A stretch of DNA of 64,000 nucleotides from Planctomycetota bacterium (lineage in GTDB: Bacteria; Planctomycetota; UBA1135; UBA2386): contig JAEUHP010000171.1 of assembly GCA_016795295.1 (NCBI GenBank), forward strand, positions 1 through 64,000. The letters are read 5' to 3'. The position numbers were made by a program, and so were the translations under genes. The notes below the pieces were generated by a model. The model was not told the DNA's origin. It saw only the letters and a program-made list of their open reading frames with translations, and ran no database searches. Shown one piece after another: positions 47 to 27,515 of the stretch. Position 1 is the stretch's first letter, and each line of letters starts with the position of its first letter.

Positions 47-553
47 ATGAAGCTGCAACTCGTTCTCAAGGTGTCGGGTGCGCTGCTCGTGGCCGCCCTT
101 GCCGGCGCGAGCAGCATGCTGCTGTATCTCCGCCAGGAGCAATCGAGCGCCGTCTCGCTCGGCGGTTCGGATCCTCACGGATTCGAGCTGCTGTGTCGGG
201 ACTGGGTCAGCACCGACCGCACCGTTCGTTTCGAGCAGGTCCGGGCGCAAATTCTGCTCGGCCGGGAAGAGCGACTCCGTCAGGTGAGCTTCCTCGTCTA
301 CGTCGATGTCGACGACGACGGGTGGTACTCACGTGGCGACAAGCTCGTCCAGGCCGGGTCAGTCGAAGCACCGGACGGGGCGTGCAGACTCGACCTCGGG
401 AGCTTCGAGGTTGTGGATGCGGGCACGATTATCGATGCGGCGACCGGCAGGCCTCCGCACGGCTATCTGCGCTGGCAGATTGACGTGCGCAAGGTCAATG
501 CCGACGAGCCGTGGTCCATCGCCCGCGATACCGGGGTCAGACGTCTGCAGTAG
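47..553 (+). CDS. Membrane-anchored hypothetical protein
   Basis: 168 residues. A hydrophobic stretch at about residues 7-27 looks like a signal anchor, followed by a soluble domain of about 140 residues that would sit outside the cytoplasm. The soluble part contains DVDDDGWYSRGDK, an acidic loop resembling a calcium-binding or beta-sandwich turn, but I do not recognise a family. GAGG lies 5 nt before the ATG and supports this start. The gene ends a few bases from the decayed transposase fragment on the opposite strand. Its upstream context lies outside the window. Function unknown. Confidence 0.6.
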   Translation: MKLQLVLKVSGALLVAALAGASSMLLYLRQEQSSAVSLGGSDPHGFELLCRDWVSTDRTVRFEQVRAQILLGREERLRQVSFLVYVDVDDDGWYSRGDKLVQAGSVEAPDGACRLDLGSFEVVDAGTIIDAATGRPPHGYLRWQIDVRKVNADEPWSIARDTGVRRLQ

Positions 554-556
554 CTG

Positions 557-885
557 GTGCCAGCGCGCAGAGACGTTCCATCAACACATCCTGCGTCATC
601 ACCACCGCGGTCGTGCCATCCCGCCAACGCTTCTTCGCCGCATACCCGACCCTGCCCCCACCGAGCCCCACCAGCCGCGACTCGGCCACCGCTGGACGGC
701 CAGCATGGCGTTACAGCTTCTCGAGACGTTCCCGATCCCCGGCCGCCACCCACGCGCCTGCGTGCAGCGAGAAGCCGTCAGCTTCCACGCACAGCGGCCC
801 CTTGCGCCGCGGTCCCGAGCCACTGCGCGTGCTGGCGATCCCGGCGGGTGCTGTGATCAACACCCGATCACCACGGCGCAGCTCA
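557..885 (-). pseudogene. Decayed IS91-family (Y2) transposase fragment
   Basis: Read on the minus strand, this stretch encodes GPLCVEADGFSLHAGAWV, then AAGDRERLEKL, a TAA stop at about 711, and in the same frame RHAGRPAVAESRL, AAKKRWRDGTTAVV and DVLMERLCAL. From memory of the family, this order (GFSLHA, then D-R-x-x-LE-x-L-C-R-Y, RPAVA-x-x-RL, K-x-x-W-x-DGT, LLERL-x-ALVP) belongs to the C-terminal half of IS91-type transposases. Only about 110 codons remain. There is an internal nonsense codon, no catalytic tyrosine region, and the C-terminal end is cut. It abuts the stop codon of the pre-peptidase gene, so the element probably decayed in place or arrived as a fragment. No terminal repeats were recognised. 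Confidence 0.7.
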
Positions 886-23793: not shown

Positions 23794-25854
23794 TCACTCC
23801 AGTCGGAACTGCAGCCGCTTGGCCTGCCGCAGCACCACGCCGGCATCCATGTCGAAGTCGCAGAGGCGCACGGCGAAATAGACCGAACGCGAGCCGTCGC
23901 GGTGTTCGTCCACCGCCCATTTGCCGTCCCAGCCGAGCGGCGCCGGCGGCCGGGCCACCGCCACCACCTTGTCCACCACACGCTTGGTGCGCACTTCGAC
24001 CGTGAACAGCAGGTCGTCGCGGTTGCGCCGGTGTTCGCCGTCCCAACTGCAATCGACGCCGACCCCGGCACCGCGCCAGGTGGTGATGCTCGGACCGAGT
24101 GTGTAGTTCCAGTCCGGCACCACGCATGCGGCCACCGGCCACCACTCGGCGGGCGCGTGCACCGTGATCTCGTTGCCGCGCAACTCGGCACGCGCCGGCA
24201 ACACCCGCGGGGCGGCCGGCACGCGCAGCACGAACGCCGGATCGCCATAGCAGGCGGCGTTGTAGTACTGGTAGCGGTGCAGGCCACGCTCGGTTTCCCC
24301 GCGGGCCTGCAGCAACGCCTGCACACGATTCAGGGCGTGGCGGTGGGCGCGGCCGAGCGGCTGCCCGGCCAGCAGCGCATGCCAGAACTCACTGCGGTAG
24401 AACTCGCTCTGGCCCACCGCACGCCGCACGTTGCCGACGAACGCCACCGCGCCATTGCGCAACAGCCGCAGCGCCACCGACCGGTGCTCCGGATCCTGGT
24501 CGAGCGCCGCGGCGCTGCAGCCCGAGGACTCGACGACACACGGCGCCAGCAGCACCTTGGCATCGTGCTTCGCCGTGGTCCCGAGTTCGAGCCAGGAGGA
24601 ATGGGAACCGTGGACCAGCACGCGCGCCGCGGCGAGCGGCGACGTCGCGTCGAACGGCTGCCCGCCCGGGTGCAGCGTCGGAGCTGCGAACCCATGGTTC
24701 TGCAACAGTGGCGCGGCGGCGCGTTCCCACTCGGCCATCGCCCAGGCGCTGTCGCTGCCGTCTGGCAGCAACCACTCGTAGGCGAGGTTCCGCGCCGCCT
24801 GCAGGAGGCCGGCGTGGCCGTCCTCGGCGACGAAGCGCGCGAACGCCACTTCGACGAACGGATCCGCGTCGGTGTCGCCGTAGCGCAGATCCGACGGCGG
24901 GTCGGTGTCGATGCCTTCGCCGGACGGCACCACGAAACTCGGCAGCAGCTCCGGCATCGCGCACAGAGACAGCAATTCCGGCTCGGCACCGAGCGACTTG
25001 CGGAACCCCGCCAGCGCCGCGCGCGCCGCGTCGGCGCTGGCCGGCGGCGTGTCGGCCGTGCCGAGCGGCACCACAGCACCGCCGCGTCCCGCAGCCAGCA
25101 CCGCGGCCGCCAGCGACAGTTTGCGCACCTGGCCGCAGCCGCGGTCGGCCGGCACCGCCGCGGCGAGGTAGTCCACCGGCAGGTCGTGCCGACGCAGCCA
25201 GCGCGCCGCTTCGGCCGGCGTGCGCAGGGCTTCGCTGGTGGCGGCCGCCAAGGTCGGGCGCGCCTTGCCGAAGTCGCCGACCAGCAGCAGCGAACGGGTG
25301 CCGCGGGCCGTGAGCACGGCACGGGCGGCGGCGGTCAGGCCTTCGGCACCGGCGAACAGCAGCGGTGCACGGCAGCGGGTCGCCACCACCGCGCCGACCA
25401 GCGCCGCCGCGTAGTCGGCCGCTGGCACCACCACGGCCCGCGCACCGGGCGGCATGCGCAGAGCGAAGTCCGCCGCGGCGTGGTCCGCGTCGTCGACGGG
25501 CAGCCGTTCGCCAGGAATGCCGGCGATCGCCAGTTCGGCCGGAGCCGCGCCGAGCCACAGCAGGCGCGGCGGCTGCAAGCGGCGCACGAAATCGACCTGT
25601 TCGGGTGTGGGCACGCCGTGCTCGGGCACGGCGAGCACCAGCGGTGCACCGCCGTGCTGTGCCGCCGCCACCGGCAGCGCGGCGAGCAGGGCCAGGTCCT
25701 GCCAGGCAGCCGCAGCCGGCAGCGCAACCACCCACAGTGGGCCGCGCGCCGCGGTTTTTGGCGCCACCTGCGGTGCGGCCTGGGATGCCGCCTGGGCCAT
25801 CGCGCCGGCGAGTGTGGCACCCAGGCCGAGGGCGAAGGCGGCAACGCGGCGCAT
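23794..25854 (-). CDS. Gingipain-like (peptidase C25, clan CD) exported protein
   Basis: 686 residues from MRRVAAFALG, with a signal peptide ending MAQ. The middle carries features of the C25 fold: SDLRYGDTDADPFVEVAFARF (like the gingipain D-G-D-x-x-P-D-I-A-V-GR strand), VLVHGSHSSW with a candidate catalytic His (about 415 or 418), and LLAPCVVESSGCSAAA with candidate Cys 439 or 446, followed by ALRLLRNGAVAFVGNVRRAV and YYNAACYGDPAFVLRV. The last ~140 residues form a beta-rich domain. It would act outside the cytoplasm as a cysteine peptidase. Assignment is from motif order only. It converges on the GH2 gene with 10 bp between stops. Confidence 0.55.
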   Translation of the reverse strand: MRRVAAFALGLGATLAGAMAQAASQAAPQVAPKTAARGPLWVVALPAAAAWQDLALLAALPVAAAQHGGAPLVLAVPEHGVPTPEQVDFVRRLQPPRLLWLGAAPAELAIAGIPGERLPVDDADHAAADFALRMPPGARAVVVPAADYAAALVGAVVATRCRAPLLFAGAEGLTAAARAVLTARGTRSLLLVGDFGKARPTLAAATSEALRTPAEAARWLRRHDLPVDYLAAAVPADRGCGQVRKLSLAAAVLAAGRGGAVVPLGTADTPPASADAARAALAGFRKSLGAEPELLSLCAMPELLPSFVVPSGEGIDTDPPSDLRYGDTDADPFVEVAFARFVAEDGHAGLLQAARNLAYEWLLPDGSDSAWAMAEWERAAAPLLQNHGFAAPTLHPGGQPFDATSPLAAARVLVHGSHSSWLELGTTAKHDAKVLLAPCVVESSGCSAAALDQDPEHRSVALRLLRNGAVAFVGNVRRAVGQSEFYRSEFWHALLAGQPLGRAHRHALNRVQALLQARGETERGLHRYQYYNAACYGDPAFVLRVPAAPRVLPARAELRGNEITVHAPAEWWPVAACVVPDWNYTLGPSITTWRGAGVGVDCSWDGEHRRNRDDLLFTVEVRTKRVVDKVVAVARPPAPLGWDGKWAVDEHRDGSRSVYFAVRLCDFDMDAGVVLRQAKRLQFRLE

Positions 25855-25915
25855 TCGCGCAGTAGAGCCGAGTGCACCTGCCAACGCAGCCAGGAAGTCT
25901 TTAGCCAGACTTATT

Positions 25916-25942
25916 CTGCGGTTGTAACCGCAGTTTTTCTTT
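25916..25942 (+). terminator. Intrinsic-terminator-like hairpin with T-run
   Basis: CTGCGGTT (25916-25923), GT, AACCGCAG (25926-25933) form a perfect 8-bp stem directly followed by TTTTTCTTT. This is the only classical stem plus U-run noticed in the window. It points along the plus strand, where no protein gene ends nearby, so it may end a short untranslated transcript or antisense RNA. On the minus strand it would lie in the 5' leader of the gingipain-like gene. Confidence 0.5.
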
Positions 25943-25957
25943 GGTTACGATCCCATC

Positions 25958-26062
25958 GCGGCCGTGGCCGCAACCGAACCACGGTTGCAAGAATTGGCCA
26001 CGGCCGCTTGTTGCTGGGGGCCTTGCGCTTACGAGAATCCTCGCGCAGCGCGAGGATTCTCG
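25958..26062. other. Nested long inverted repeats, possible structured RNA or leader
   Basis: Two strong symmetric structures are packed here. GCGGCCGTGGCC (25958-25969) pairs perfectly with 25996-26007 and encloses GCAACCG (25970-25976) paired with CGGTTGC (25982-25988), an extended stem with a 7-nt bulge. Then 26032-26046 and 26048-26062 form a perfect 15-bp palindrome around one base. With the hairpin at 25916 this fills the ~300 bp between the gingipain-like start (25854) and the gene ending at 26152. No protein gene is supported. TAGTCT on the minus strand at 26064-26069 could be a -10 reading into this region. Confidence 0.45.
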
Positions 26063-26151
26063 AGACTACGGCCTAGAATGCGCTCGGCCGACGGTCGCGA
26101 AGTCGATCGCCTCGTGGCGCTGCCGATCGCGGACCTGGTCGGCCGAGGCTC

Positions 26152-26652
26152 TCAATCGGGCAAGAACTCGACCGAGTAGACATGCCCGGTGTCGTCGAGC
26201 CGCACCACCCCCCAATCGCTGTTGTAGTGCGGCAAGTCGCTGTGGCGGAACACCAGCGTGTTCTCCACGCGCATCTCGCCATCCGGCGTCTGCCAGCCGG
26301 TGCCGATCCTGTATCCGGCCATGACGGCCTTCGCCTGCATCATCGACATGCCGATCTGGACCCGCTCCAGGTCCCGGAGGAACACCTTGCGCGAACTCCA
26401 CGGCACCCAATGCAGGACCGCCAGCGCCACGAGCGCGGCGGCCAGCAGGAGCTTCGTCGAACGCGGCACCGGCGTGCGCAACAACAGGCGCGCCAGCAGC
26501 GTCCAGCCGACCAGGACCCCGGCTGCGATGCCGTAGCAGCCGCGCGGCAATGGCGTGTCCACCAACAGCTCGACCAGCCCCGCACCCAGAATCGCAAGCC
26601 CGGCCAACACCCACAGGAAACAGCACAACGGCGCCACGGAACGCACCCGCAT
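26152..26652 (-). CDS. Membrane protein with BamE/SmpA-like C-terminal domain
   Basis: 166 residues. Three hydrophobic segments (about 8-30, 40-58 and 68-85) precede a soluble ~80-residue domain with ERVQIGMSMMQAKAVMAGY, then VRLDDTGHVYSVEFLPD. The GM-S-x-x-x-A pattern and the final strand recall SmpA/OmlA (BamE) domains, in which a helix pair is followed by a three-stranded sheet. The domain would face the periplasm. It is the last gene of a three-gene minus-strand set, 20 bp after the SGNH hydrolase. Function unknown; the fold call is moderate. Confidence 0.6.
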   Translation of the reverse strand: MRVRSVAPLCCFLWVLAGLAILGAGLVELLVDTPLPRGCYGIAAGVLVGWTLLARLLLRTPVPRSTKLLLAAALVALAVLHWVPWSSRKVFLRDLERVQIGMSMMQAKAVMAGYRIGTGWQTPDGEMRVENTLVFRHSDLPHYNSDWGVVRLDDTGHVYSVEFLPD

Positions 26653-26672
26653 GGGCCCCACGGGATTCGTCG

Positions 26673-27515
26673 TCAATGCACCCACACCTGCACCTCTTGC
26701 GTCACGGACCTCCCGCGAACGGGAATGGCACCGCGGACCCGCACCCCGGCGAACCCGGCACCGGCCGGCAGCGCGCACGCCAGCCGCAGGTGCGGCCACC
26801 ATGGCACCACGGTCGCGTGCGGCGCGCGCACCGCGCTGGGCGCGACCGTCCACGCGGCGAAGATGTGCTGCCACGCGGCAGCCGCTGCAGCACGTCGAAT
26901 GTGGATCGGATCGACGCCGTACCACACCTCCTCCGGCACCACGACGGCGGCGTCGTGCCGGCGCGCGAGTTCGGCCAGGCCCTGGTCGACGCACTCGGCG
27001 CGGCGCAGCGCTTCGGCCCACGAGAAGCGCACGTGCCGCGGGAACAGCAGCGCACGCATGCATTCGTAGCCGAACGGATGCAGCCGGCGCAGGCGCACCA
27101 TCGGCAGTCGAACCAACGTGAGCCGGGCCCCGTGGGCCCGGAGCCGGGCCGCCGCGGCATCGACCCATGCCAGCACCGTGTCGGGCGACTGCCCATACAT
27201 CAGGTCGTTGCCCACATCGGTGATCAGGGCGTGCGCCACCGGGGTCGCTTCCAGCGTGCGCCACAGAGTGCTCGCCAGAACCGACGGCAGGGTGCGCACC
27301 ACCACGCGGCTGTCGAGGCCGAACGAACGGCCCCGGCCGGCGGCGACGTGCAAATCGGCCCTGCCGCCGAGGGCCGTGGCCGCAGCAGCCACCACTTGGC
27401 CGATGCCGCGCGACACGTTGCTGGCGCCGACCACCACCCCGACCGGGCGCGCGGCACCGCTGCCGGCGAGCTCGGTCGACGCACGGGTTCGACCAACCGC
27501 CGCAGCCTCAGCCAT
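26673..27515 (-). CDS. SGNH-hydrolase-like protein
   Basis: 280 residues. Three blocks of the SGNH/GDSL superfamily are visible in order: VVVGASNVSRGIG near the N terminus (block I, with GAS in place of GDS), LITDVGNDLMYG (block III GxND) and GVDPIHIRR (block V DxxH). No signal peptide, so probably cytoplasmic. Members hydrolyse esters on lipids or glycans. The start codon overlaps the end of the Uma2 gene by 8 bp, implying coupling. Substrate unknown. Confidence 0.7.
   Translation of the reverse strand: MAEAAAVGRTRASTELAGSGAARPVGVVVGASNVSRGIGQVVAAAATALGGRADLHVAAGRGRSFGLDSRVVVRTLPSVLASTLWRTLEATPVAHALITDVGNDLMYGQSPDTVLAWVDAAAARLRAHGARLTLVRLPMVRLRRLHPFGYECMRALLFPRHVRFSWAEALRRAECVDQGLAELARRHDAAVVVPEEVWYGVDPIHIRRAAAAAAWQHIFAAWTVAPSAVRAPHATVVPWWPHLRLACALPAGAGFAGVRVRGAIPVRGRSVTQEVQVWVH

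Follow-up and report, generated by a model that had tools for sequence, protein, structure and literature searches.

Results

A folded repeat unit upstream of a C25 peptidase gene

Positions 25952-26075 of the window, the 64,000-nt stretch of DNA that was analyzed, probably hold one copy of a small, non-autonomous mobile element with a folded structure, a reading to which we assign a probability of about 0.72. The first-pass annotation had described three stacked inverted repeats at 25916-26062, and re-reading of the sequence confirmed that all three are present and exact. They are an 8-bp stem (25916-25933) with a 2-nt loop, followed on the plus strand by TTTTTCTTT; a 12-bp stem (25958-25969/25996-26007) enclosing a 7-bp stem, GCAACCG-AACCA-CGGTTGC, at 25970-25988; and a palindrome with 15-bp arms and a 1-nt center (26032-26062). 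Ranked by length with loops of up to 30 allowed, the perfect hairpins of the 64-kb window are headed by the palindrome, with the 12-bp stem in third place. Fifteen shuffles of the window yielded zero to three stems of 12 bp or more, the longest measuring 11-15 bp. A 12-bp or a 15-bp stem is uncommon and could singly arise by chance; the pair within 110 bp is not expected. Folding of the 191-nt region gave z-scores of -9.2 on the plus and -8.5 on the minus strand, and no shuffle was equally stable.

When the same 191-bp region was searched against its own genome (G000; 5.5 Mb in 309 contigs), eight further places were found at 84-92% identity, followed by many weaker ones. Seven of the eight span approximately 122 bp (window 25949-25952 to ~26073-26076) and one spans ~90 bp. 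Since the matches cover them together, the 12-bp/7-bp stem, the palindrome and TAGTCT are parts of one unit; the 8-bp stem was never included in a match, and of the three stacked repeats it is therefore the one that stands apart. TAGTCT itself does lie on the minus strand (26063-26068), but it complements AGACTA, part of the element's right end (GAGACTACGG), and is not an independent promoter; other copies keep GACYAC at this place.

In the orientation of the covariance model (plus strand), the unit consists of a 116-bp body (25956-26071) and two flanking 4-mers, and the model matches the window copy at 25952-26078 with 143 bits. The left 4-mer, CCCA (25952-25955), is a direct repeat or target site, and the right one, CCTA (26072-26075), is a decayed CCCA. 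Domain 1 (25958-26007) is formed by the 12-bp helix P1 around the 7-bp hairpin P2 (25970-25976/25982-25988). Domain 2 (26016-26073) is closed by helix P4, in which GGGGGCC (26016-26022) pairs with GGCC (26070-26073) around the long hairpin P5, that is, the palindrome at 26032-26062; P4 follows from the plus-strand fold and from covariation in G013, a Planctomycetota MAG rich in copies. Domain 1 and P5 both display double-sided changes among copies. A perfect 10-bp inverted repeat, CTCGGCCGAC, adjoins the element at 26083-26092 and 26138-26147. On the reverse strand the model matches this repeat and the palindrome together, though weakly (31.5 bits), and they may be a decayed doublet such as that at C149.

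The window copy is situated between two minus-strand genes. Downstream in their direction of reading is the gene (23794-25854) that had been called gingipain-like, a description borne out by a Peptidase_C25 match (PF01364, E = 8e-11); its ATG, read from the sequence, is at 25854, 97 bp from the left 4-mer. Upstream lies an ORF (26152-26673) without a Pfam match. No significant model match was found upstream of the C25 orthologues in G010, G013, G022 and G034. These four orthologues lead us to reject one form of the structured leader that had been suggested, a leader conserved in the mRNA of this gene, and indicate that the window copy is a local insertion for which a host role need not be assumed; most likely it has no host function. 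Elsewhere in the window, positions 510-788 (minus strand) carry a remnant IS91-type Y2 transposase gene with two internal stop codons (38 bits).

The 8-bp stem and its T-run (25916-25938, plus strand) lie outside the unit; a small RNA with its own terminator had been among the first-pass readings of the region. The terminator-like match at the stem is at chance level (one match found, 0.8 expected). Acting on the plus strand, the stem would stop transcription that runs antisense to the C25 gene, and it is thus a terminator for neither neighboring minus-strand gene; probably it is an operator, an antisense terminator or a product of chance. Beside it, upstream of the C25 gene, is a small inverted repeat, AAGTCT-TTAGCC-AGACTT (25896-25912), and the two may form an operator region.

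Copies in other genomes

A covariance model built from 16 copies matched 20 places in G000, at least 90 in G013 (a lower bound, from 90 matches among 92 candidates scored), and 12 each in G022 and G004. One marginal match each was seen in two of the other 30 genomes of the family, and nothing convincing in the remainder of the 154-genome class set, leaving these four as the only carriers. G022 belongs to the same genus as G013. G018 and G024, which share the genus of G004, gave no model match, and such patchy spread is as expected for mobile DNA. In G000, a scan with the right-end pattern returned 11 places, as opposed to none for the reversed pattern. A scan of GTDB contigs for the exact palindrome yielded strong whole-element matches solely in contigs of the G013 MAG (L088, L089, L096 and L099); the remaining contigs score weakly, mostly over the palindrome alone. 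Among the refuting conditions of the first-pass annotation, a lack of extra copies and of conserved pairing did not hold: dispersed copies and covariation were both found. Of its readings the mobile element stands, in modified form: the sequence is probably a whole small element and not the end of a larger one.

Matches in G089 were rejected as copies, being a different dispersed hairpin repeat of ~100 bp with GAGAATCCGCGCGCGGCGCGCGGATTCTC (L186, L188 and L189), of another family in the same order. One copy in G004 (L121, from ~1502) begins ~2 nt past a tRNA-Ala(CGC) gene at 1424-1499. No Rfam family reached its gathering score, the best being sodF_sRNA at 20.5 bits against a required 46, and we found no description of the element in open-access texts.

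Conserved pairing

Domain 1 contains its 12-bp helix around one hairpin in G000 and around two in G013, and in domain 2 the short helix P4 (GGGYCC/GGRCCC) surrounds the long hairpin. Across three genera, the covariation score was 0.194 compared to 0.096 in shuffles, and double-sided changes were seen in 10 of 32 scored pairs; alignment A2 alone (nine copies) likewise displays such changes. Among 45 copies from G013, 95% of cells pair, against 30-43% once the partners are shifted by 1-3 columns; double-sided changes occur in all five helices, and counts of them are inflated by the relatedness of the sequences and could be increased by repair between hairpin arms. As judged from these alignments, compensatory base changes support every helix. 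Since P4 joins segments ~50 nt apart, the simpler explanation is selection on a folded single strand, be it RNA or DNA. One G013 subfamily (L168, L171, L172 and L173) is set apart by 17 extra nucleotides, CACTGTGTTCCAAGAGG, inserted in the long hairpin's loop.

Ends, flanking 4-mers and interrupted genes

Across the carriers the element measures 120-160 nt. G013 contains ~50 full copies with a body of 137-157 nt, which runs from TCGCGG to CTTCGGG or ACTACGGA. A direct comparison of the ends (left, TCGCGGCC; reverse complement of the right, CCCGAAG or CCGTAGTC) revealed no terminal inverted repeats; subterminal hairpins are present at both ends. Bodies at different G013 loci are up to 98.6% identical, which indicates recent spread in that genome, and a crude GC-skew test gave no bias toward either strand.

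Counts of flanks and guides were taken from G013-only sets, as a regular-expression sweep of all loci was dropped for its many false pairs. The G013 set comprises 55 flank pairs (53 under a stricter length limit), in which CCCA is the left 4-mer in 36 and the right 4-mer in 40. In three copies the two flanks agree on a 4-mer other than CCCA (TCCA, CGCA or CTCA; permutation p = 0.003), and these identical flanks argue for target-site duplication. In many others the two sides are unlike (GCCA/CCCA, CCCA/CCCG), and the flanking 4-mers may variously represent true duplication, an element-borne CCCA or later mutation. Guide and target change together in one copy only, L157, where the guide is GGAG and CTCA lies on both sides. 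Head-to-tail copies with one common CCCA occur at L142, L144, L146, L166 and L173. The right end in G013 often reads CCCATG (L011, L143, L150, L154, L161, L166 and others), its ATG opening ORFs of 163, 532, 289, 332, 126 and 329 aa, some of which end at the locus edge, and very short ones elsewhere; possibly, the element targets or supplies start codons.

Several G013 copies interrupt genes. Their flanks are coding-like on one strand, and removal of the body together with one 4-mer mostly restores the frame, so that the joined flanks read on as proteins. The clearest cases are an RND pump and an AAA_14/DUF4143 ATPase, both with the junction at residue 150: in the pump PF00873 extends across it (residues 1-300), and in the ATPase AAA_14 does so (residues 31-157), with DUF4143 following. 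In YhgA-like, AAA_30 helicase-like and nucleotidyltransferase-like joined proteins the domains are adjacent to the junction, or the match that crosses it is weak. No true empty site was seen in a second genome. The joined halves at L060 resemble parts of RecQ that we take to belong far apart, and this locus was excluded.

Candidate mobilizing enzymes

RAYT/Y1 genes were not found in G013, G022 (Y1 search) or G004, all incomplete draft MAGs. RAYTs are usually few per genome; RAYT-like genes number 63 in G034, 14 in G014 and 10 in G000, an odd expansion. Co-occurrence fails to point to RAYT/Y1 as the mobilizer, Y1 being present only in G000 among the carriers. The IS110 DEDD recombinase (PF01548) is absent from all four. 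Reverse transcriptase was rejected since its genes do not track the element (one in G000, three in G022, none in G013 and G004). The IS91 Y2 transposase shows no correlation with it (seven genes in G000, two in G022, one in G004 and none in G013, and found also in the element-free G018 and G024). No full-length insertion sequence combining a Y1 TnpA with the ends of the element was seen in the draft genomes. Multicopy transposase genes are easily lost from draft MAGs, and as all carriers are such assemblies, a Y1 enzyme may yet be involved.

Discussion

Proposed mechanism and rival explanations

We propose that the element would be mobilized in trans while single-stranded and folded. Its hairpins would be recognized by an enzyme that cuts beside CCCA at both ends and that most likely belongs to the HUH single-strand type. 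Pairing of the internal GGG with the right-end CCC would help to set where the cut falls, and perhaps also the target, in the manner of the IS200/IS605 guide tetranucleotides. A bolder version, in which the internal GGG sets, by base pairing, both the right-end cut and the CCCA target for a new guide-directed, single-strand class whose enzyme is recognizable as neither Y1, Y2, IS110 nor reverse transcriptase, seems unlikely.

The unit could instead be a REP or REPIN moved by a RAYT (TnpA_REP), as the minus strand reads GTAG-TCT-hairpin at its right end. GTRG beside the palindrome recurs on that strand in the G000 copies, this genome has its ten RAYT-like genes, and REPs are known in Planctomycetes (PMC3733652). 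Yet G013, the richest in copies, is among the carriers missing RAYT/Y1; around six G000 RAYT-like genes that were examined there was no significant model match; right ends in G013 often have CTTC instead of CTAC; and a single 120-160-nt composite with 4-bp direct repeats differs from a REP of 20-50 nt. We consider this origin quite unlikely. A classical MITE, derived by internal deletion from an insertion sequence with a DDE transposase and carrying its hairpins as passengers between 4-bp target duplications, would account for a small, non-coding, multicopy element with direct repeats of this length; missing terminal inverted repeats, the strong preference for one 4-mer and the structural constraint on the internal hairpins make it very unlikely.

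Covariation would also fit a structured RNA (a leader, small RNA or processing site, acting in cis or in trans) that has merely become multicopy, and some G013 copies abut the ATG of a long ORF. Copies in unrelated contexts and within genes, C25 orthologues devoid of the unit and the lack of an Rfam family all speak against this explanation, which we regard as highly improbable. Lastly, shuffles of the window do sometimes yield stems of 12-15 bp, and the symmetry might be ascribed to chance or repeat noise in GC-rich DNA; this reading is already refuted by copies at 84-92% identity together with covariation, and its probability is negligible. A small mobile element is thus the explanation that we prefer. 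With it, a little-studied phylum gains a well-marked family of small mobile DNA that depends on structure, and the interrupted genes, the 4-bp repeats and the compensatory changes open its mechanism to testing. Should none of the known transposases serve the element, the mobilizing enzyme is yet to be found. There is also a warning here: in such genomes a strong fold between genes can be a copy of a transposon instead of a riboswitch-like leader.

Comparison with known systems

Integron attC sites (PMC3053210) are likewise folded single-strand recombination sites in tandem arrays; unlike them, the element has no cassette genes between copies, its ends are not RYYYAAC/GTTRRRY, and its insertions into genes are scattered. 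Rickettsia palindromic elements (PMC3733652) are also folded repeats within and between genes with no known mobilizer, but their sequence is unrelated (by inspection only), and insertions of the present element mostly break the frame. Class 3 TnpA_Y1 of Planctomycetes and Acidobacteria is associated with high-copy atypical secondary structures (PMC6006769), a similarity that extends to the phylum; its reported foot, however, is CnGA, and its gene was not found in G013, G022 or G004.

With REP, BIME and REPIN sequences and their RAYTs (PMC3733652, PMC8266576) the element shares dispersed palindromes, GTRG by the hairpin in G000, insertions in genes and doublets, for example at C149. It differs in its composite length and 4-bp direct repeats, in GTRG not being kept in G013, and in missing RAYTs where copies are most numerous. 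IS200/IS605 elements lack terminal inverted repeats; they have hairpins at their ends and flanking tetranucleotides, the right one pairing with a guide (PMC6006769). Their derived PATEs (PMC6006769, PMC7290912) resemble the present element in these ends, in a tetranucleotide that flanks the left end with a similar one closing the right, in pairing between the last tetranucleotide and a guide located 5' to the right hairpin (here GGGYCC/GGRCCC), and in being short, gene-less forms moved in trans. Unlike PATEs, the element has no Y1 transposase in three carriers and no recognized left guide; its 4-mer can vary jointly on both sides, and its left domain has several helices. PATEs leave no target-site duplication, for which the three copies with identical non-CCCA flanks give some indication here. 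With Y1 missing from three of four carriers, IS110 absent, and reverse transcriptase and IS91 genes that do not track it, the element can be filed neither as a PATE nor as a REP; the closest logic is nevertheless that of IS200/IS605-derived PATEs and REPs.
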